64,000 nt of DNA from Planoprotostelium fungivorum (Eukaryota > Evosea > Variosea > Cavosteliida > Cavosteliaceae): assembly GCA_003024175.1 (NCBI GenBank), contig MDYQ01000007.1, positions 372,001 through 436,000 on the forward strand, read 5' to 3'. The notes beneath the pieces are model-generated. The model did not search any database. It saw nothing but the letters and a program-made list of their open reading frames with translations, and had not been told where the DNA came from. Positions 3-39,176 of the stretch are shown piece by piece. Each line of letters starts with the position of its first letter. Position 1 is the stretch's first letter. The translations under genes and the position numbers were made by a program.

Positions 3-3000
3 TACACATCATGTGGCCTCGACTGCAAATCTGCCTCTTCTGTCTCGGACATCATCATCCCAGCCACCCAACAGAGATCGATCGATGCCCCACCGAAAGA
101 CCAGAACCTCGTGTATAGCTTTCAACTCAAGGGGATCACAGGCCGTTTGTCTACCCCAGCTATGTCTCGCATCTTTTTCGACGCCTCTGCTGTCGGCATG
201 GGCTTCCAGTTCAGAGTCTCGTACGACTACGACGGAGACTCTCAATACGATCAGAGGTGGACATCTCCATTAATCACCCCCGACGCTCTCTTTGGACAGT
301 ATGAGACATTCACATCTACCATTGGAGGAGCCACGAGAGACATCAACAACGGTAACATTCTCGTCGAGTTCTGGTCCACCTTTGCATCTCGTGGAACGGG
401 CAGACTTCGCATCGGCCCCAACATGTCCAACATCGTCTTACCCTTCACCGGTGTCTCCAGTGCTTCATGCTCGAACGCCTCACCGACACCATCACCTTCC
501 CCCCAACCAACCACCGCCGCATCGTCCACATCGGCGACGCCGACACCATCTTCTTCACCGTCATCCGACATCTGCAAGACCATGTTCGAGAGCTTACGAT
601 GCAGAGCGACCAGCGACAACCCATCTTCCATCGATGCCGGAAGAGTCAGCGGAGCGAGAACGTGGCTGTGTGGCAACCACGCCACCTTCTGCTCGGACAT
701 CATCAACGGAGGAAAGTTCTCCAACTGCAATTCTGTACAGCAATTGTCTCAGGCCATGAACCGATACTACGAGACATACGGCGCCAGACAAGGTGAGACA
801 GATTCATCTCCTCTCGATATAAAAACCGCGACTGACTTATTCCAGGTGCCGCAGCTTGTGATTTTGGAGGAGTGGGTACGGTCGTATCCATCACAAATGC
901 TCCCACCCCCACCAGCGCTACCCCCACCCCAACGTCTCAAGTCATTCAGACGACCGTCCCCGCGCCCAACCCCAACCCTGTCCCCGCTCCCGACACGGTT
1001 CCCGCGCCCAACCCTAACCCGGTGCCGATACCTCGACCACCCCCCACACAGACTCCCACCCCCACGCCGAACACGAACGCTCGCTGGTCCACCCTCTACA
1101 ACGGTCGATTGACTGACGTCACGATTCCATCCGGCCAGAGAGTTCTCCTCGACGTGAATTCCGTGGAAATCTCGGGTGTCATCACCATCCAGAAGGGTGG
1201 TGCCTTAGTCTTGGACTACAACCAGCCATCGATCACTGTGACGGCCGCGGCCATCGTGGTGCAGGGAGAATTTCACATCGGTAGTGAATCGAATCCATTC
1301 AATAGACCCGTCGGCATCGTTCTCAGTGGAACTCGCGAGATCACAGTTGATGGAGTACCTGTGGGATCTAAGGTGAGAAGAAATTTCGAGGAAGATTCTG
1401 ATGGGGTCAGGTCATCGTGGTGGGCAACGGTGGAGTTGTAGAATGGCACGGGATCAAAGGTTTGGGACGCTCTTGGACCCAATTGTCCCAGACGGCCCAA
1501 GCTGGAGCCAACAGACTACAACTGGCCGAAAATTTCGCCGAGACCTCCTCTCCCAGCTCGTGGACCGTGGGAGACGAACTCGTCGTGGCGGGAACAGATT
1601 ACGCCCCGGACCAAGCCGAGGTAGTCACCATCACGAGAGTCCTATCCGGAAATACCGTGGAGATTTCACCCTCTCTCAAGTTCTACCACCACGGTACAGT
1701 TACCATGGGAATCGACGAGAGGGCCCAAGTAGGAATCCTCAGCAGGACCATCACCATATCCTCCGGTAACGCCGGCAGAAGAGGTAAACTATCGTCTCGT
1801 TGTAGATGAATCGTACTCAATCTTTCTCTCAGGAGCTCACACTCTGTTTTTGGCTGGCTCTCTCGTTCACATCGAAGGTGTGGAGGGAGTCAATCTCGGA
1901 CAAGACCAGATCGCTCGCTATCCCTTCCATTGGCACATGGCTGGAGAAACTCAGGGACACTACATCCGCCACTCTTCCGTCCGATCCTCTATCTTCCGCT
2001 GCGTCACCATCCACGGCTCCCACGGTATCACCGTGTCCGACGTAGTTACGCACGACAACGCCGGTCACTGCATGTACCTCGAGGACGGTGTCGAACGTAA
2101 CAATGTCTTCCGTCACAATCTCATCACCAGCATCAAGGAGAAGAAAGATGGAGAACGCATGGGAAGTGATTACGGCATGGCCGTGTCAGGCTTCTGGATC
2201 ACTGCTCCGGACAATGTCTTCGAGGACAATGTCGTGTCCGGCTCACCCGGCGCGGGCTACTGGGTCCACGCCAGACAGGGACCCCGCGGTCTATCGTCAC
2301 GTGACGCTCAGTACCGCAACTACCGTCCCAGCGGTACCAATCTCAAATCGTTCAAGGGAAATTTTGGTATCGGTTGTGATCACGGCTTCCAAATCGAGGC
2401 TACGTATTACGACAACTACAACGTGCCACTCAACGACGTACCCGAGTCACCCATGGCAGCGTACGCACCGCAGAGTGGAGGGAAGGATATGGCGATTTAC
2501 CTCGATGACTTCACTGCTCACCACAATCGATTCAGAGGTCTGTGGGCGAGAGCTCCCGTAGTCTACGTCAGGAGAGGAAAGTTTTCGAACAACATGGAGG
2601 GCATTCAATTGGCCACATCCGGTGACCATCCCTCGCCCGGAAGCGTAGGATACGTAGACGACTCACTCATTGTCGGGTGGACCGACAACGTGGGCAACAA
2701 CGTCTTCAACCAGTGGCAGATGTGGAACACCGAGAGAAAGAGGTGAGAAACAGATGTCTAGAGGTAGATGCTGACGTCATCTCTCAGGTCTTGGCCCAGA
2801 AATGGAATTCCCATGGTTGGAGTCGCTCTGTACGACGGACCTCAGGTCGTTCGCAGGACCACTTTCGATTCCTGGGAAATTTCACCCAACGAGACACCAC
2901 ACTCCGCCATCGGTACTCGCTTCCACGGAGAATTCCAGATCGCATCCAGCGGAGCCGTTGTAGACTGCCAATTCAAGCGTACCACACGCCGTGTGTACGT

Positions 3001-3757: not shown

Positions 3758-4848
<1,091 letters not shown>

Positions 4849-28689: not shown

Positions 28690-28786
28690 CTGATGTGGTG
28701 GCGAGATTTCGGCACATTTTGAGGTGCGTGTTGTAAATTGATATTTAGACCGGTCAGAGATCGCTGACCAGCATTTATAGCCCAAG

Positions 28787-29699
28787 ATGACAAAAAGATA
28801 TGAACAACACCTTCACACGGTTCTAGCCCATACAACATTCTTGAAGAAAGTATTCTTCAGAAGTGAAACAATAGAATACGATCTTCTTTTAGAGAAGATT
28901 TCGAGAGGCTACCAGACCTTAAAGACGCAAGCTCTCGATGACACCGACCTCGTGGGATCTCTTCAGCTTCTCTTCTGCAACTATCTTGATCATGTCTGGA
29001 GAGCTGAATTTCCTCCAGACAAGCAACTCGACACGGAAGAGATCATCATACAACTAACAGATAATGACAGAGACCCCACAGAGTTCCTCGAAGACCAACA
29101 TGTAAAGCTAGCAAGCCGTGTCGCCAGTAAGATCAAGAACCTCTTCACAGCTGCCCAACAAGTCTTTGGATCAGACTTTCACACCTATTGCGATGAACAA
29201 TTCTCACCCGACCTGGCCAAACGCATACACATCACACTCGCCAACGGCATCATCGAGGATGGAGGTCTCTACCGTGAAAAGCAGGTCCAAGCCTCACAAT
29301 CCAAGGTGGTATATGCGCCACCAGAGACCATAGAGGCCCGCATGAACGTCCTCTTTCAATTTGCCAACCAGAAAGCAGCCGAGTGTGCCAACTTGGACCC
29401 AATTCAGAGAACGAAAGAGATGTTCCTCGTGGCCACAGTCTTTCTGTCCGAGTTTCTCCTCATCCACCCGTTCTCGAATGGAAATGGACGCACGGCGAGA
29501 TTACTCCTCAGCTTCTTCCTGAGAGATGTGACCGTCGTTCCGTTTTCTCTGTGTGGGATCGGTTGATGACGATGCCAGGAATCATTACATCTCGGCCTTG
29601 GAAGAAAGAAACGGTGGAACACCGCCCTCTGTCTTGGCCACTCTGATGCTCCTGTCTGCAGATCAAACACACGATATCATGGACTACTTGTTCAAATAA
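28787..29699 (+). CDS. Fic-domain protein (AMPylator-like)
   Basis: A long first exon gives ~255 residues with no signal peptide or membrane span. It contains the Fic signature HPFSNGNGRTARLLLSFFLR and, upstream, the Fic helices LFQFANQKAAECANLDPIQR and FLVATVFLSEFLLIHPF. The final short exon (HYISALEERNGGTPPS to FK, stop at 29697) is in another frame, consistent with one very short GT-AG intron near 29552-29580; the exact junction is unsure. Fic enzymes transfer AMP (or other groups) to hydroxyl side chains using the motif His. In HPFx(D/E)GNGR the Mg-binding acidic residue is Asn here. No TPR repeats were seen, unlike animal FICD. The N-terminal ~130 residues are unrecognised. Confidence 0.82.
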
Positions 29700-29889
29700 A
29701 CGTAGATATTCTCTTTTTGTGTAGAATCAGTAGAGAAAGACATCCGATCGTGTCGCGCGTTGTGCGACCGAACCTTTGATAGATGAGAGGGGCCGTTCAT
29801 GGTTGAAGAAATTTGGCGATTTTTTTTCATGTTCTACAAACTGAGTTTGAGGTCTTCTTTTTGCAAGTTGCAAACAGGAGCGAGCGATT

Positions 29890-30673
29890 ATGAGTGAGGA
29901 TCTCTCAACACCAGGGACACCTCCGTTATTGGAGGTTCCCCACAAGGAAGGGTCAGAAGAGCTCATTATGTGCCGCATCTGCCACGATACAGCAGGAGAG
30001 ATGATTGTCCCCTGCCGCTGTGATGGGACTTCTAAATATGCACATGCAAAGTGCCTGAACGATTGGAGGGACAGATGGAAGTCTAGACATAGAGGTGTGG
30101 CCTCCCTCCACCGCTGCGAGATCTGTGGCAGTCGCTTCTCGGTTCAATTCGTAGAGCCAAACTTCTTAGACTACGTCTCGAAACATTGGACGTTCTTTGA
30201 GAAGGTGAGATGTCCATCTGAATCACCCTCATTTCTACGATAGGTTATGTATACGACCTCAGTCGTATCGTGTGTATTCTCAGTGGGATTTTCACTTCTT
30301 GCCTTTTGGCAGAACGAGAAGGATAGACTGTGCAGAGAAGTCAGACAACTCCAATTTTTCGGTCCTCCAATGAGGCGACAGGATGGAGGAATCTTGAAGG
30401 TGAGAGCAACGACGACGCTGCACCATGTGACACTCTACACAGATCTTCACCCAGATGAATCTGGTCCGAAAGATGATCGTATTCATCGTATCCAACGCGC
30501 CACAACTGTTCCTATACGGGTGGCCGTGCAATCTTAAGTTCCTCATGTGCCTGTGCATACTCACCATCTGCGGCGGGAACTCATTTCTCTTTCGGTATTG
30601 GAAGAGGCAAAATAGAAGGGAGAACGTCCTCCCTTACCAGCCTCAACAGACTACCATGAACCAGCTGGAATAA
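29890..30673 (+). CDS. MARCH-type RING-CH membrane E3 ubiquitin ligase
   Basis: Three exons. N-terminal RINGv (C4HC3): MCRICHDTAGEMIVPCRCDG, KYAHAKCLNDW, HRCEICGSRF. Hydrophobic segments follow (MYTTSVVSCVFSVGFSLLAF; MIVFIVSNAPQLFLYGW; FLMCLCILTICGGNSFLF), then a short cytosolic tail ending QQTTMNQLE. This is the MARCH/RNF layout with an N-terminal RING-CH and two or three membrane spans. It is expected to ubiquitinate membrane proteins and drive their turnover. Confidence 0.85.
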
Positions 30674-30931: not shown

Positions 30932-33900
30932 ATGGACAAGTCCACCAAGTGGAACCGCAAGCAGACAAAAGTAGCAATCATTCACTCTCGATCCTTTCAA
31001 TATACTTTAGACGATGGCGCACAATATAGACTCCTCGAGCGGATCAACAAACTGGTCGAGGGAGGCGATCTATCAACTTTCTCTCCAGAGAGATCCTTCT
31101 CTCCTCCCGGAACCATCAACGCTTCCAGTCCCACCTCTTTTCATTTTCTAGATCTGAGACCCTCTCGGACTAACTCAACAACTTCCACAAGCAATGCCTC
31201 TTCAAATGTAGTTCAATCTATGAGCCTCCACGGTGAAGGCACAACCGCCATCGGATCACCCGCGCGAATCAGAAGAGCCAACAATCTCATCAAGGTGGGT
31301 CACCCCCTCAGTCGATATAGAATCTTACGAATTCACAGTCCGTCAAGGCGGCCGAGGTCAGCATCGACTCGTTCTCATCTTCGGGCAAGTTTTCACTGTC
31401 CTCGGCATCTTTAGACGATGCCTCGCCCGATTTCGCTTCTTTCGGTTCTCCCTCTGAAGAGCGCCCTCTGAGCTTTTCTGTCTCTCCCCCATCGTCTAGA
31501 GATAGCGGTCCAACGCATAGGAGACACATGTCTGTGTTTGTCCCCGGCTCAGGAAATTCAGCTTCTATGCCCAACGACGTGACCTCATCTGTTCCTTCCG
31601 TCACTCTATCGCCCAGAGATCCCATCAAGAGATCGAAATCATCTCAAGCCATCCCAAGGTGATCCATCCATCCACTCCTCCACTTTCATCTCCACATCAT
31701 CTCACGCGAAACGTCATCATCCATCATGTTCCATCACACCGCACCTCATCCAAAATTCCACGCTGACGCGTTGTAGATCGATCCAAGCCCACACGATCGC
31801 AGAGGCAGAGGCCACGAGAGACAATGGAAATTTGAGAGAGAATCTGACTCACTTGAGCCTGAGAAAGAGAATGATATACAAGAACTCGAGAGAGACAATC
31901 TTCGAAGAGAACGACACGAAGAATGGAAGGGATGTCATCAACTTCAATTCTACCTTGTTGGGTGCCCTACCATCTCAGATCGGTCTAGTCCACTGGCTGA
32001 AAGCTCTTTATTTGGAGGACAATCAGATCCCTTCTATACCTCCGGAGATCAAGTCACTCACACTACTGCGAACACTCTCTCTGTCACACAACAGGTGAGC
32101 TATCTCGTCTCTTTATGTCTTTCCTCTTATTTCATATTTCATCTGTCTTTTGACACAATGTAACGTCTTTTATTGTCTCGATTCAATCTACATCATCCAT
32201 TTCATTCTCTCCATTCATTCTCCATTCATTCTCCATCTTCACAAGCGAGACCTATTGAGAGAATATACAGATTGAGCTCTCTCCCGAACGAAATCGGAGA
32301 ACTGAAGAGTCTGACCGAATTGAATTTGGATTCGAATCTATTGATGGCACTGCCAAAGACACTGGGAAATCTTCACAATTTAGAGACCCTCCTTCTCAAC
32401 AACAACGAGCTGTCTTCCATTCCACTCGAATGTCAGGCACTCACGGAGCTGCAGCAATTGGACCTGTCTGGCAATCCTCTCATCTTCCCACCGAGAGCTA
32501 TCGTCGAAGACGGTGCTCAGACCGTAGGTATGTAACACTCTACACATCATCCACATCATCAACATCATTCACATCATCCACATCATCCACATCATCATCA
32601 TCATCATCATCTCATATCGTACAGTGGCTTATTTAAAGAACACTTCGACAAAGAATAAACCCTGCCACAAGGGCAAACTTTGCGTTTTGGGAGACGGTGA
32701 GTGAGATGAGGTGGACGATCACTGATCGTCATGCAGACGACAGTGGTAAGACGACATTCACGAAGCACTTGCGAGGAAAGAAGGGACAGAAGGAGAGGTC
32801 AAAGAATGCCGCCGGTGTGTCCATTCACAATTGGATGCTGCCAGTCACCATGGAGACCACGACGGTCAACATCAAATTCAGGATCTGGGAATTCGATGGA
32901 AGAGGTGAAGTGTAAGTGTAATATTGAATGACGCTCGCAGAATTGTACGGAGGCATCCATCACCTCTTCTTCTCGGAGAGGGCAGTCTATTGCATCTTGT
33001 GGAACATGACAAAGAGAGAGAAGGGTATGGACACCATCGAGTACTGGCTGCACATGATCGAATCGAGAGCGAGAGACTCACCGGTGGTGGGTGACACAAA
33101 TCGACGATGTGAATGACGTTCATCAGTTAATCATCGGCACCCATGCAGATGAGATGAGCGCTGAAGACGTGACGACGTTAGAAGAGACACTCATCGAACG
33201 ATTCTCCGGTAGATTCGAGAACGTGAAGGGAATCCTTCCCATCAACAATCTCACATCCGATGGAATGCAGTACGTCAAGTGAGGGTCAAATCGTCGATGT
33301 GATGCATTGATGTGTCGTGTAGATTGAGCATCGAGAAGATCGCATCACAGTACGGGCCGTTTCACGAGGAGATACCGAGTAATTACAAGGCCTTCCAGCG
33401 GATTCTCATCGAAGAGAGGAAGAAGAGAACTCCACCGGTTATCACACAGAAGAAATACGCACAGTGGGCTCAGATGTGTGGAATTCCAGAGGGCATATTG
33501 AGCAGAGTGTCCCACTACTTCAATTCGATCGGTGCCATCCATCACTTTCCTGATCTACCTCACGTCGTTCTACTGGACCCGACTTGGTTCTACACTTGTG
33601 TGAATCATCTGGTCAATCAACCACCCGAGGTGATCATCACATCGAGAAGAGAACGAATGAAATCCATTGGCTAACGTGGATAGATCATATTTGAAGGATT
33701 GTTATCGAGTCACAATATTCCCAAGATCTGGCCGAGATACAACACGGAAGTGCAGACGTTCATCATGACGTTGATGTCACAGTGTCAGATCTGCCTGCAA
33801 TTTGATCGAGAAGGAGGGAGACACATCGACATGGTATTACCTTCTCTTCTGCCCGATCAAGCTCCACCCCTCCATCTGTTATCCGATCACGTTTCACTGT

Positions 33901-36900
33901 CTAGGGTGTACAAGCTCTCTTTCATGTCTCGTGCTTTCTCCTCTTCTTTCTTAGCCAGGTAAGTGTTTTTCTCTTGCACCATTTCATCTCAATGGAATCA
34001 TCCATCTCTTATTCTTCGACGTATCTCTCTTTATTCTCTCGAATCATTTCACTCGTCTGATCACGATACAGATTGTTAGAGATGAATTATTATCTCACGA
34101 AGAAGAGATCAACGGTTCCCTTCTGGAGGACTGGTATCGTACTGAGAGACTACGCGAGAGAGACCATTCCCAACACGGCCATCGTTGAATTGGATCGTTC
34201 GAACAAGGTGATTTCTCACTCTCTCTTCACTCTCTCAACTGATCAGACGATCTCTCTCCTCGTGGGTGGACCCTCTCATCCCGTGTCTCTCCTTCGACCC
34301 ATCGAAGACCTCATCCATCTCCTCATCTCGAATTGGTGATCATCATCACATCTCATCACATCTCATCACATCTCATCACATCTCATCACATCTCATCACA
34401 TCTCATCGTCTTGTGATGACTCTGTGTGACGTGCGAATAGGTATCCCTGTGAGATGACCAAATTTGTGAAGGTGGAGGAAGAGATGATTCCGTTCTCGGA
34501 TTGTGAGGTGGCCGTTGCAGCGGAGAAGGAGAAGATCGAATGGAACGGAATATCGCACACTCTCACTAGTATCGTACCCGAGTTCTTCTTTGATGATTTT
34601 ACTGGAAGAAAGAATTTCTCTGATCTAACCATCACTCAGCAAATCGGAAGGGGTGAGTCACATCATCCATCTCATCCCATCATCATCCATCTCATCACAT
34701 CATCATCTATCACATCATCCATCTCATCACATCATCATCATCATCTATCACATCATCGTCCATCTCATCCCATCATCATCTATCAAATCATCGATATTAT
34801 CCATTTCATCGATGAGAGGACAAATCGTGAAATGAAATGCAGGAGCATTCGGAGACATATCGTTAGCTTCTGTGGAATACGACGGAGAGAAGAAAGATAT
34901 CGCCGTGAAACAACTCACCACATCTCTCCCAGAAGAGAGATTGCACGCCATTCGAGAATGGAAGCACGAATTAGAGATGCAACAGTGAGTGTGACGTCAC
35001 CTCAGCCGACGTAACACAGAGCAGGAAGATGAGGCATCCGAACGTGACCAACTATCGAGGCTTCTGCATCTCACCTCCTTGCATTCTCATGGATTATTCT
35101 CCTCACGGAACTCTACACAACCTGATTCACGACCAAGAGCAGAGTCTGCCGTGGAACATGGTGCTCAAGTTAGCGTCCGACATCGCGAGTGGTATGGCTT
35201 ACCTTCACACGCAATCTCCCGCCATACTCCATCGAGATCTGAAGACACCGAACATCTTGCTGTACAGCATGGACGTACACTCTGAGACTATGGCCAAGGT
35301 GGCTGATTTTGGAACGGCCACACCGAGTTACATCAATCACTTTCGATCTCGTCTGGTAGACCAACCTCTCTGGCTCGCCCCGGAGATCATGGTGGGGAGG
35401 CCCTACGATGAGAAATCAGACGTCTACAGCTTCGCCATCATCCTGTGAGTGTCACATGTCTGTCATATGTCTGTCACACGTCACACATGTCTGTCACACG
35501 TCACACATGTCTGTCACACATGAACTGAAGATGACAGGTGGGAGATGTTGTCGAGAAAGATGCCATTCGATGAATTTCCGTTTGCAAACTGGTGCGTTAT
35601 TTCTTTATTTTGGAACAGAAGAGTGACGGAAGATCAGGTATTCACAATTGGAGGACTCGATCGTGGCTGGAACGAGACCCACAGTTCCAGGAAAGACACA
35701 TCCAGGATACAAACGACTCATCATCGATTGTTGGTCGGGCAATCCAGCTCATCGTCCCTCTTTCACTGAGATCAAGACTCACTTGACGCACATCACTAAA
35801 TCGAACACGGCAACCTCCACCGTGGAGGTGAATTGTCGATTTGATATAGAAGATGACGATGTACAGTTGTCCGATGCGACGTATCAATTTGATGTTGCGG
35901 ACAACGAGGATAACATCATTCTCGATGAAGATCGATTTGATGGCTCACTCGCCAAGGCCGCATCCATCACGAAATTAGTCGAGAGGATCACATCACCCGA
36001 TTGCAAAGGTGACATCACATCACGCAACAAACACTGAATCGCTGCAGAAAACACACACATGAGTGATGTCTTTTTGACCCACAGAATGTTCACGACGAGT
36101 GAAGAACTATTGGATTTGTTGATATTGAGATACCACGGACCACCACCAGCTGCCTCTCCAGACCAGAAGCTCAAATTTCATCGAGACAAAGCCTTCATCA
36201 TGATCATGTGAGTCACATCGTCGATGAGACGTACGCATCGACTGACGACATCAGGGTGATCGAGGGTTTGTACGTCTGGAGTGGAATGAAGAGCTTCGTC
36301 ACCATCAAAGAGAGAGTGAGAGATTCACTCGAAGTCATGGAAGGTGTGAAGGCACACGCTCAACGGAGGTCCGTTGAATTAGAAGGAGACAAGTTGATGG
36401 ACGAGCACAAACACCTCCACACGCTCGAGAGTTTGAAGAAGAACGTCTCTTCAAAGTCACACCACCACTCTGATTCTTCTCTTCTCCTGGACGAATGGCT
36501 CAAACTGTACGGAGACGAGAAGAAGGAAGAAGTGAGAGAATTGAATCACAGGAGGCGAGCCAGCAGCGCAGCATCGAAAGAAGTGAAGAAGGAGACGTTG
36601 GCCAGAACAGAGCCGAGAGTCTTGGCCCAGCAGATGACACTGTTAGACACGCATTACCTTCGATCAGTAGACACGGACGAATTGTTGGACGTCAGCGGAA
36701 TCGTTCAGGGAGAGAAGAAGAAGACCATCACTCGCTACCAAGACTATTTCAACGAGAGGAGGAATTGGATTTCCACTGAAATCATCAAGGGAGAGACACC
36801 ACAGGAGAGAGCGGAGATCATCGATTACTACATCCAAGTGGCCGTACGTCTGCAGGAACTTCAAAATTACAACGGCCTCATGATGGTGTTGACCAGTCTG

Positions 36901-39176
36901 TATTCAGATGCCGTCACTTGGTTGTCTTCTTCGTGGAGAGAAGTGAGTCGACTGCAGAGAGAGACGTGATTGACTGTCGTAGGTACCGAAGAAGACACTG
37001 GAGACGTTCGAAACCTTGTCCAAGTTGATGTCACCTCAGTATAATTACAAATCGTACCACGCAGCACTGCAGGACATCGCCGACGAGCCCGTCATTCCTT
37101 ACATCGCGTCCTTCCTGAACGAATTCGTCTTCATGGACACGACCATGCAGTGGAAGATCAACGGTTCATTAGTCAACATCGAGAAGATATTGGCGTTGGG
37201 CAAGATGATCAGAAAGTTTCAAAAGTACGCGGAGAACGCGACACGATTCATCTCATCGATCTCTCCCATCGAGAGAGTACAGAGGTCCATCCTGTGTGCA
37301 GCGGTGAGTGTTCATCACACGACATCGATGAGCATCGTCGATGGATGTCTGCGTTACATCGATGTGATGTTGATTGATATCAGGTGTGGGAGGAAGAAGA
37401 TATCGTGACGGTCGCCCACGTCAGGGAAGGCATCAACGAGAACCTCCAGCAAGGTGGAAGCAACACGACCATCAGGCAGTTCAGAAAGTTGAGGGAGGGA
37501 GGAAGAAATAAGATCGTGACGGACATCACTTCTCTTCCTTCGAGAGATTGGGATCTCTTACTCACCAACGCACGCATCATGCCCGTAAAGTGAGTGAAAT
37601 TTCGATTCGTACGGAAATTTCGATTCGAAATGTACTCACGCGGTGTAGAACCGGCCAAGAGGTTCTCGAGCAGAACATCATCAACACACACTTGTACCGC
37701 ATCATCTCTGGAAGATTTGTCGTGAGAAAGGATGGAAAAGAGCACAGCCTATCTCGTCTCGGCCCCGGTGCCATCTTTGGTGAGATGTCCTTCCTTGGCC
37801 TACGCACTTCCGCTTCGATTCTGTCCGAAGAGGAGGGACAACTTCACGTCTTAGAGATCAAATTGGTCAAGAGGCTCTTCGCGATGGATCCCGATTTGTT
37901 TCGGTCCTTCTATCAATATCTGGCGACGCTGTTGGCCAAGAGACTGAAGAAGGTGAGAGGGAGGAGATGATGGAGAATGACTGGGAAAGGTATCGGAGCA
38001 AGCACCCACCGTGTCTCCACTGTTGAACTCTCCCGATCTACGCCCGACTCGAGGACACTCTGAAAAGGTGAAGATCTTCAAATGACTTATCATTCTTTAT
38101 GAAGATAAGTGTAAAGAATGTCGACTGAATGGATGAACAGACTGTGGGATCTGAAGATGCGGAGGGAAGAGAAGAAGACGACAAGTTCCGCAGGAGATTC
38201 AAACTGGACACCGAAGAGATCATCATCAAAGAGTACAATTGCATTCAGAAGAGATGCGCGGGAAGGCTCTACCTGTCGAAGCAGCACATCTGTTTCTACG
38301 CCAACGTCTTTGGCATGAAGAGAAAGGTGATTGTCTCCATCTCACATCGAGTGGATCTGACCTTGAATAGAAAACATATCCCTTTGCGAGTCTGAAGGCC
38401 ATGTGGAGAGATAAGAAGATGGGTGTGGTGGTCATCACCTTATCTGGAGACAAGGGAAAGTTCTCCTTCGCCTCGTTAACGGATAGAAGCGAAGCCTTCG
38501 ACATGATGGAGTCTCTCTGGACTTCATCCGCTGTAAGTGATATTCCTTGCATACACATCGAATCATATAGTTGTACATAGATCATCGCACGACATAACAC
38601 TGATGTGTACAGTATGTGAGGAGCGGTGGATCGGTCATTCGACAGCCAATGAATGAAGTGAACGCCAACGCAGGAGAAGAAGAAGACACCGAAGGCCTGA
38701 CCACGGAAGACAGGGCCGCCCTCTTGGAGGGAGCGAAGACCCAAAAATACGAAGAGAACCAAGAGATCGTCAGCATCGGAGCGGATCACCAGAGAGTCTA
38801 TCAGATCGACAAGGGTGTCTGCCGCATCGAGAGGGGCAACCAGGTGAGCTGATGATAAGAGAGAGAGCCTGACAGAGATAGATACTTGGATTCCTCCAAG
38901 AGGGACAGTTCTTTGGAGAGATCTCCTTCTTATTATCGGGTGGAGCGACGGCGACCATCGTGGCCCACTCGGACCAAGTCGAGTTGTCCATCTTGGAGGG
39001 TTACTTCATCAACATCCTCTTTGGAATCAGACCGGAGATGGCAGGGAGGTTCTATAAGCACCTGGCCAACATCCTGCAGAGGAGAATCAGGGAGAGGGAA
39101 GACGAGCCGACGGGGGTGAGAGCGTCTCACTTTCTTCTCTTCTGATGCATTACAGCCGCAACAAAAGTTTGTTTGA
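30932..39176 (+). CDS. gbpC-like: GbpC-like giant: LRR - Roc - COR - TKL kinase - RasGEF - cNMP - GRAM - cNMP
   Basis: Over 20 exons, roughly 2,000 residues. Domains in order: Ser-rich N-terminus; leucine-rich repeats (31940-32510; LPSQIGLVHWLKALYLEDNQ, LPNEIGELKSLTELNLDSN); Roc GTPase (32640-33280; LGDDDSGKTTF P-loop split by an intron, GTHADE); COR (33320-34560); TKL kinase (34570-35800; IAVKQL, HRDLKTPNILL, VADFGTAT, LAPEIM); RasGEF_N (36085-36330); RasGEF catalytic (36610-37310; RVLAQQMTLLDTHYLRSV, MRPL-type core); cyclic-nucleotide domain 1 (37640-37960; GAIFGEMSFLGLRTSASI); GRAM (38160-38540; RLYLSKQHICFYANVFG); cyclic-nucleotide domain 2 (38690-39110; GQFFGEISFLLSGGATATI). The last exon gives PQQKFV, stop at 39174. 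This order is that of Dictyostelium GbpC, the cGMP target in chemotaxis and osmotic response. Confidence 0.92.
32541..32613 (+). repeat. ACATCATCC simple repeat in Roco-gene intron
   Basis: Degenerate 9-base units ending in an (ATC)n run, inside the intron between the last LRR exon and the Roc exon. Confidence 0.85.
34345..34407 (+). repeat. (TCTCATCACA)n repeat in Roco-gene intron
   Basis: Six near-perfect 10-base units in the intron before the last COR-region exon. Confidence 0.9.
34655..34805 (+). repeat. CATC-rich repeat in Roco-gene intron
   Basis: Irregular CATCATCCATCTCATCCC units fill the intron that splits the glycine loop of the kinase domain. Confidence 0.8.
35446..35523 (+). repeat. 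CACATGTCTGT repeat in Roco-gene intron
   Basis: Interleaved copies of TGTCACACGTCACACATGTC in the intron inside the kinase C-lobe (after FAIIL). Confidence 0.85.

Follow-up and report, generated by a model that had tools for sequence, protein, structure and literature searches.

The window analyzed here, a 64,000-nucleotide stretch on contig C461 of assembly G000 of the unicellular amoeba Planoprotostelium fungivorum (PMC7934950), contains a gene that encodes a real, intact GbpC-type Roco protein, PROFUN_00385 (P0001), previously deposited as a hypothetical protein. P. fungivorum belongs to the Evosea/Variosea lineage, and PROFUN_00385 probably corresponds, in this variosean, to GbpC, with which Dictyostelium translates cGMP into cell polarity; it would be a signal relay on a single chain, without DEP. 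A more interesting lead than the DEP-less variant itself is its sensor cassette of cyclic nucleotide-binding (cNMP) domains, which is Arg-less and widely reused. Other loci of this genome are labeled by contig (C67, C103, C207, C224, C257, C298, and C447).

The deposited PROFUN_00385 is matched letter for letter by 29 exons in the window, encoding 2117 amino acids and separated by introns of 36-190 bases; their span coincides exactly with the interval proposed in a first-pass annotation made from the DNA letters (Table 1). Our first gene model, assembled manually from open frames and splice signals, had 26 exons in a single open frame of 2143 amino acids; it departs from PROFUN_00385 at three splice choices and has a different last exon. 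Pfam residue numbers refer to this hand-built model and were afterwards converted to window coordinates. Three relatives are known from transcriptomes. P0002 (EukProt, 1909 amino acids, one Trinity transcript) covers the chain from the N-terminus up to where GRAM begins, with 47% identity over 1936 columns, P0003 (EukProt, one transcript) runs from COR-B to the second cNMP domain with 39% identity over 1411 columns, and P0004 (MMETSP) begins within the kinase and reaches the second cNMP domain, whereas PROFUN_00385 is whole. For a gene structure read from genomic DNA, an artefact in which the gene models merged two adjacent genes is conceivable; we give this idea almost no credence, given that every junction is GT-AG and in frame and that the kinase-RasGEF joint lies on a single transcript in 3/3 relatives.

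A Pfam profile search, with every family above its curated cut-off, recovered leucine-rich repeats (LRR), Roc, COR-A, COR-B, kinase, RasGEF_N, RasGEF, cNMP, GRAM, and cNMP, in the same order as the first-pass annotation (which had named a TKL kinase); the cNMP family (PF00027) matched two stretches (best 1735-1814, 5.8e-22 overall). Together with the 29-exon match and the single-transcript relatives, this order bears out the earlier proposal of a GbpC-like architecture within one gene of a distant amoebozoan. The kinase and P-loop motifs, already described as intact, are indeed unbroken: IGRGAFG, AVKQL, HRDLK, DFG, and APE can be read in the kinase, and Roc has THxD as well as its P-loop GDDDSGKT, which is interrupted by an intron (32690-32753). 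That annotation did not mention the switch-II motif of Roc, where DxxG has become ExxG (EFDGRE in PROFUN_00385 and EFSGQE in P0002). Among the best 60 of 2588 PDB matches, the LRR-to-kinase span aligns as a whole with human LRRK2, and the closest kinase-only match is Dictyostelium Roco4 (4f1o_A, E 6.8e-47). PROFUN_00385 can be viewed as an LRRK2-like chain that carries its own exchange factor.

The same one-chain order, LRR-Roc-COR-kinase-RasGEF_N-RasGEF-cNMP-GRAM-cNMP, is described for GbpC of D. discoideum (Roco family, RasGEFT; PMC6320773). PROFUN_00385 has the LRR-Roc-COR-TKL kinase half, RasGEF_N and RasGEF after the kinase on the same chain, and the cNMP-GRAM-cNMP tail. GbpD, described as RasGEF-cNMP-GRAM-cNMP (PMC11988041), shares the C-terminal half of PROFUN_00385 but is without the Roco-kinase half; the closest layouts to GbpD in the P. 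fungivorum genome are those of C224(-), C298, and C103.

GbpC of D. discoideum, which we compared by its published domain order, differs in that RasGEF_N and RasGEF are separated by a DEP domain (PMC6320773; the DEP domain is named also in PMC1273635). DEP (PF00610) was not detected in PROFUN_00385, whether in the whole protein at E<=0.1 or in the RasGEF_N-RasGEF linker at E<=10, nor at E<=1 in P0002-P0004, all of which span this linker. An exon-by-exon search of the genome gave 8 DEP matches, 0 of them on the contig of the PROFUN_00385 gene. The AlphaFold model of the linker exon was too poor to use (mean pLDDT 41.5) and was discarded. Because DEP was not detected in any of P0001-P0004, we speak of a DEP-less protein of the GbpC type and not of a complete GbpC, and the "full domain set" initially claimed for this gene is incomplete. 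As a natural DEP-less GbpC, PROFUN_00385 offers a way of asking what the role of DEP is.

P0002, P0003, and P0004 resemble PROFUN_00385 throughout: over the parts covered they have the same architecture, no detected DEP, and Arg-less cassettes. In a RasGEF tree of 10 rows, P0001-P0004 form one group (support 92/95, just below the starred level of the tool), separate from the RasGEF-cNMP proteins C224(-), C103, and C298 of P. fungivorum itself, as expected of one inherited gene. In a tree of the cassettes, P0001-P0004 also fall together, C67 with its long branch being the one other member (93/90). Both trees were rooted by midpoint only and have numerous long branches, chiefly those of C67 and C207 and, for RasGEF, those of C103 and C298; we rely on the trees solely for the grouping of P0001-P0004. 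These groupings, and a published domain order that is preserved apart from DEP, make it very unlikely that a Roco kinase was fused locally to a RasGEF-cNMP-GRAM-cNMP protein and came to resemble GbpC by convergence, an origin that the promiscuity of the cassette in this genome would otherwise favor.

The phosphate-binding cassettes were compared in an alignment of 29 cyclic nucleotide-binding domains (CNBs) from 15 proteins. Of these, 23 come from 12 cassette-type (cNMP-GRAM-cNMP-like) proteins, i.e. P0001-P0004, P0008, and seven P. fungivorum proteins obtained by splice prediction. The remaining 6, used as controls, belong to three further P. fungivorum proteins, which we named by eye: one is PKA-R-like, and two, each with a lactamase-type domain, are PDE-like. 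The second cassette of PROFUN_00385, FGEISFLLSGGATATI, aligns without gaps with Plasmodium-type PKG and has Ala in the Arg column, which confirms the Arg loss reported for it in the first-pass annotation. The loss is not confined to this cassette: the first one, FGEMSFLGLRTSASI, is one residue shorter with Thr in the Arg column, so that the in-register Arg is gone there too. Just ahead of this column, the first cNMP domain of P0001 and P0004 has Arg, whereas that of P0002 and P0003 has Asn.

The in-register Arg is absent in 22 of the 23 cassette-type CNBs and present in 6/6 controls; the sole cassette-type CNB that has it is the second of C207, where the predicted sequence is doubtful. When the comparison is restricted to proteins with GRAM above the Pfam cut-off (P0001, P0003, P0004, P0008, C298, C224(-), and C447), the Arg is absent in 14/14. 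Pfam did not list GRAM for C103, C224(+), and C207 and placed it below the cut-off in C67, and P0002, which ends near the start of GRAM, gave no match. On these counts we regard Arg loss as a property of the cassette class, as far as sampled. Other positions, read by eye, are retained: Ser/Thr follows the Arg column in 22/23 cassette-type CNBs, as against 3/6 controls, and 19/23 cassette-type CNBs retain the Glu of FGE (the FGE part of the first CNB of C298 is missing from the prediction). In PKG, Ser/Thr at the position after the phosphate Arg favors cyclic GMP (cGMP). FGE[IV]SFLLSGGA is retained in P0001, P0003, and P0004. Measured against the canonical PKA-R/PKG-type cassette, PROFUN_00385 has the Glu and lacks the in-register Arg in both of its cassettes. 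The cNMP pair thus appears to use a shared non-canonical phosphate cassette, with Glu kept, Arg lost, and Ser/Thr next, and its ligand would be held differently from that of PKA-R.

Two other explanations concern this ligand. The cNMP pair might no longer bind cyclic nucleotides and act as a structural module, with switching via GRAM and the membrane or via partners; the loss of Arg in both cassettes and throughout most of their class is consistent with this, and the cNMP domains of GbpD are called non-functional in PMC3188802, whereas GbpD binds cGMP according to PMC11988041. We consider it unlikely nonetheless, as the retention of the motif, the Glu, and the Ser/Thr points to a conserved cassette and not to a decaying one. 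Alternatively, the cassettes might bind a ligand other than cAMP or cGMP, e.g. a nucleoside. In kinetoplastid PKA-R the Arg position is occupied by polar residues, and inosine and further nucleosides are bound with nanomolar affinity; nucleoside binding there accompanies the loss of Arg combined with Glu at PKA position A202 (PMC10959531). PROFUN_00385 shares the replaced Arg but has Ser at the A202 position in its cassettes (FGEMS and FGEIS) instead of that Glu; the pocket therefore matches neither the standard nor the kinetoplastid type. Moreover, whatever its cassette, GbpC of D. discoideum is a cGMP binder that lets the nucleotide go slowly (half-time about 115 s; PMC7877599), and a ligand of another kind seems improbable to us.

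In favor of such a ligand, no metazoan-type E/C guanylate-cyclase pair was found with regular expressions in 38 stretches around PF00211 matches, using a signature uncalibrated on Dictyostelium cyclases. Class III cyclase exons are numerous in the genome (87 exon matches to PF00211), and stretches with findable motifs have K or R at the first signature position and D, R, or T at the second. In several of the 38 stretches no more than one motif could be located, and the stretches take in every place with matches except one, on C257 around 16.3-18.7 kb; we treat the apparent absence of the signature as a soft negative. The Arg-less cassette raises a testable question, i.e. which ligand the sensor binds and whether the slow release of cGMP from GbpC is tied to the cassette.

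The explanation that we favor, a DEP-less GbpC counterpart, starts from one gene, one open protein, and relatives carrying overlapping parts of the chain on one transcript each, all of which are observed. Every step beyond this gene structure we infer for P. fungivorum from the relay model developed for D. discoideum GbpC (PMC3188802, PMC6320773, PMC11988041), in which a cNMP ligand acts first, followed by RasGEF, Roc, and kinase, with GRAM for membranes. A small ligand (cGMP being the prior favorite) would bind the cNMP pair, and the liganded pair would activate the adjacent RasGEF. RasGEF would load Roc of the same chain with GTP, GTP-bound Roc would switch the kinase on, and GRAM would bring the protein to the membrane or cortex; the output might be myosin/cortex polarity.

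Several observations weigh against this explanation: the DEP domain of published GbpC was not detected; the in-register phosphate Arg is absent from both cassettes, a loss that elsewhere accompanies nucleoside binding (PMC10959531); the switch-II Asp of Roc is replaced by Glu; and the scanned cyclase stretches yielded no metazoan-type guanylate-cyclase pair. In addition, the proposed orthology to dictyostelid GbpC rests on architecture and on the other relatives. Protein searches with regions 1240-2143, 1690-2110, and 1060-1163 gave no match named as dictyostelid among the matches listed, which does not imply absence from the databases; the first two scored those candidates with the most words in common (7984 and 7987, respectively), and the third listed 4 of 20 candidates under a limit of E<=1e-20.

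The sensor cassette itself is not restricted to PROFUN_00385. Profile searches with cNMP, RasGEF, and GRAM, spliced predictions, and Pfam placed cNMP-(GRAM)-cNMP beside at least five other output layouts in the P. fungivorum genome (Table 1). The gene finder was trained on one gene; near the settings used, it recovered 22 to 23 exons of our 26-exon first model exactly, and fewer at weaker intron penalties. The PLD parts of C298 and C103 could be neighboring genes, yet the layout recurs in both divergent copies with short gaps, making a cyclic-nucleotide-linked phospholipase D fusion possible. At the C67 locus, a nearby histidine-kinase-like stretch, recognized by eye, may be a separate gene. 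A broader and more tentative possibility is that cNMP-GRAM-cNMP of these amoebozoans represents a distinct sensor class, in which an Arg-less cassette (mostly FGE.S....[AT][ST]A[ST]) with a different chemistry or ligand would be plugged into many outputs, GbpC being one instance; the outputs counted are Roco kinase+RasGEF, RasGEF+PLD, C2+RasGEF+DEP, RhoGEF+PH, DEP+RapGAP, and PP2C.

Occurrence of GbpC outside the dictyostelids is not new, because homologues of GbpC and GbpD have been published for Physarum polycephalum (PMC4758236). Compared by description, these combine cNMP binding with kinase and RasGEF, as here, and they are described jointly with DEP too. The first-pass annotation had placed the cGMP-chemotaxis effector well before dictyostelids; this is plausible, but the occurrence outside dictyostelids was already known from Physarum and the presence of the gene is no evidence for cGMP chemotaxis. 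The unicellular variosean and the Physarum homologues together suggest that a GbpC-type Roco kinase predates aggregation in dictyostelids, and its first job was therefore probably in single-cell motility or stress.

Table 1 Features of the PROFUN_00385 gene in the window, and proteins with the related sensor cassette beside other outputs.
Feature	Window position	Residues	Strand	Basis
Whole gene, 29 exons, PROFUN_00385	30932..39176		+	exons reproduce P0001 exactly, 28/28 GT-AG
Leucine-rich repeats	31997..32484	302-405	+	Pfam LRR_8/LRR_4
Roc GTPase	32675..33150	437-556	+	PF08477, E 3.9e-17
COR-A + COR-B	33375..34519	614-743 / 770-904	+	PF16095 E 3.8e-18, PF25497 E 1.6e-7
TKL-type protein kinase	34625..35785	940-1203	+	PF07714 (PK_Tyr_Ser-Thr), E 3.3e-49
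RasGEF_N	35954..36279	1260-1339	+	PF00618, E 1.1e-12
RasGEF_N-RasGEF linker, DEP site of published GbpC, no DEP detected	36280..36621		+	Pfam
RasGEF (CDC25)	36622..37189	1454-1629	+	PF00617, E 3.2e-42
cNMP-binding domain 1, cassette FGEMSFLGLRTSASI at 37776-37820, Arg out of register	37585..37883		+	PF00027, alignments
GRAM	38183..38523	1878-1976	+	PF02893, E 6.9e-14
cNMP-binding domain 2, cassette FGEISFLLSGGATATI at 38912-38959, Arg -> Ala	38697..39106		+	second PF00027 stretch; bounds set by hand
C298, L009/L010: RasGEF-cNMP-GRAM-cNMP-PLD motif			-	predicted
C103, L011/L012: RasGEF_N-RasGEF-cNMP-x-cNMP-(PH below cut-off)-PLD motif			-	predicted
C224(-): C2-RasGEF_N-RasGEF-cNMP-GRAM-cNMP-DEP			-	predicted
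C447, L014: RhoGEF-PH-cNMP-GRAM-cNMP			+	predicted
C67, L015: cNMP-(GRAM below cut-off)-cNMP-DEP-(PH below cut-off)-RapGAP			+	predicted
P0008 (JGI metagenome, 1539 amino acids): MORN, cNMP, GRAM, PP2C, cNMP; SnoaL below cut-off; Arg-less cassettes				Pfam, alignment

Elsewhere in the genome, one exon matches a myosin-heavy-chain-kinase-type alpha-kinase (1 match). In the window, a Fic/DOC exon with an HPFxxGNGRxxR motif (28784-29563, forward strand; PF02661, E 1.2e-17) likely marks a Fic-type gene just upstream of PROFUN_00385, and a RING-variant domain (29881-30240, forward strand; PF12906, E 2.7e-9) lies between this exon and the PROFUN_00385 gene. A weak Roc-family match at 4418-4609 on the forward strand (E 3.1e-5) is perhaps another small GTPase-like exon.

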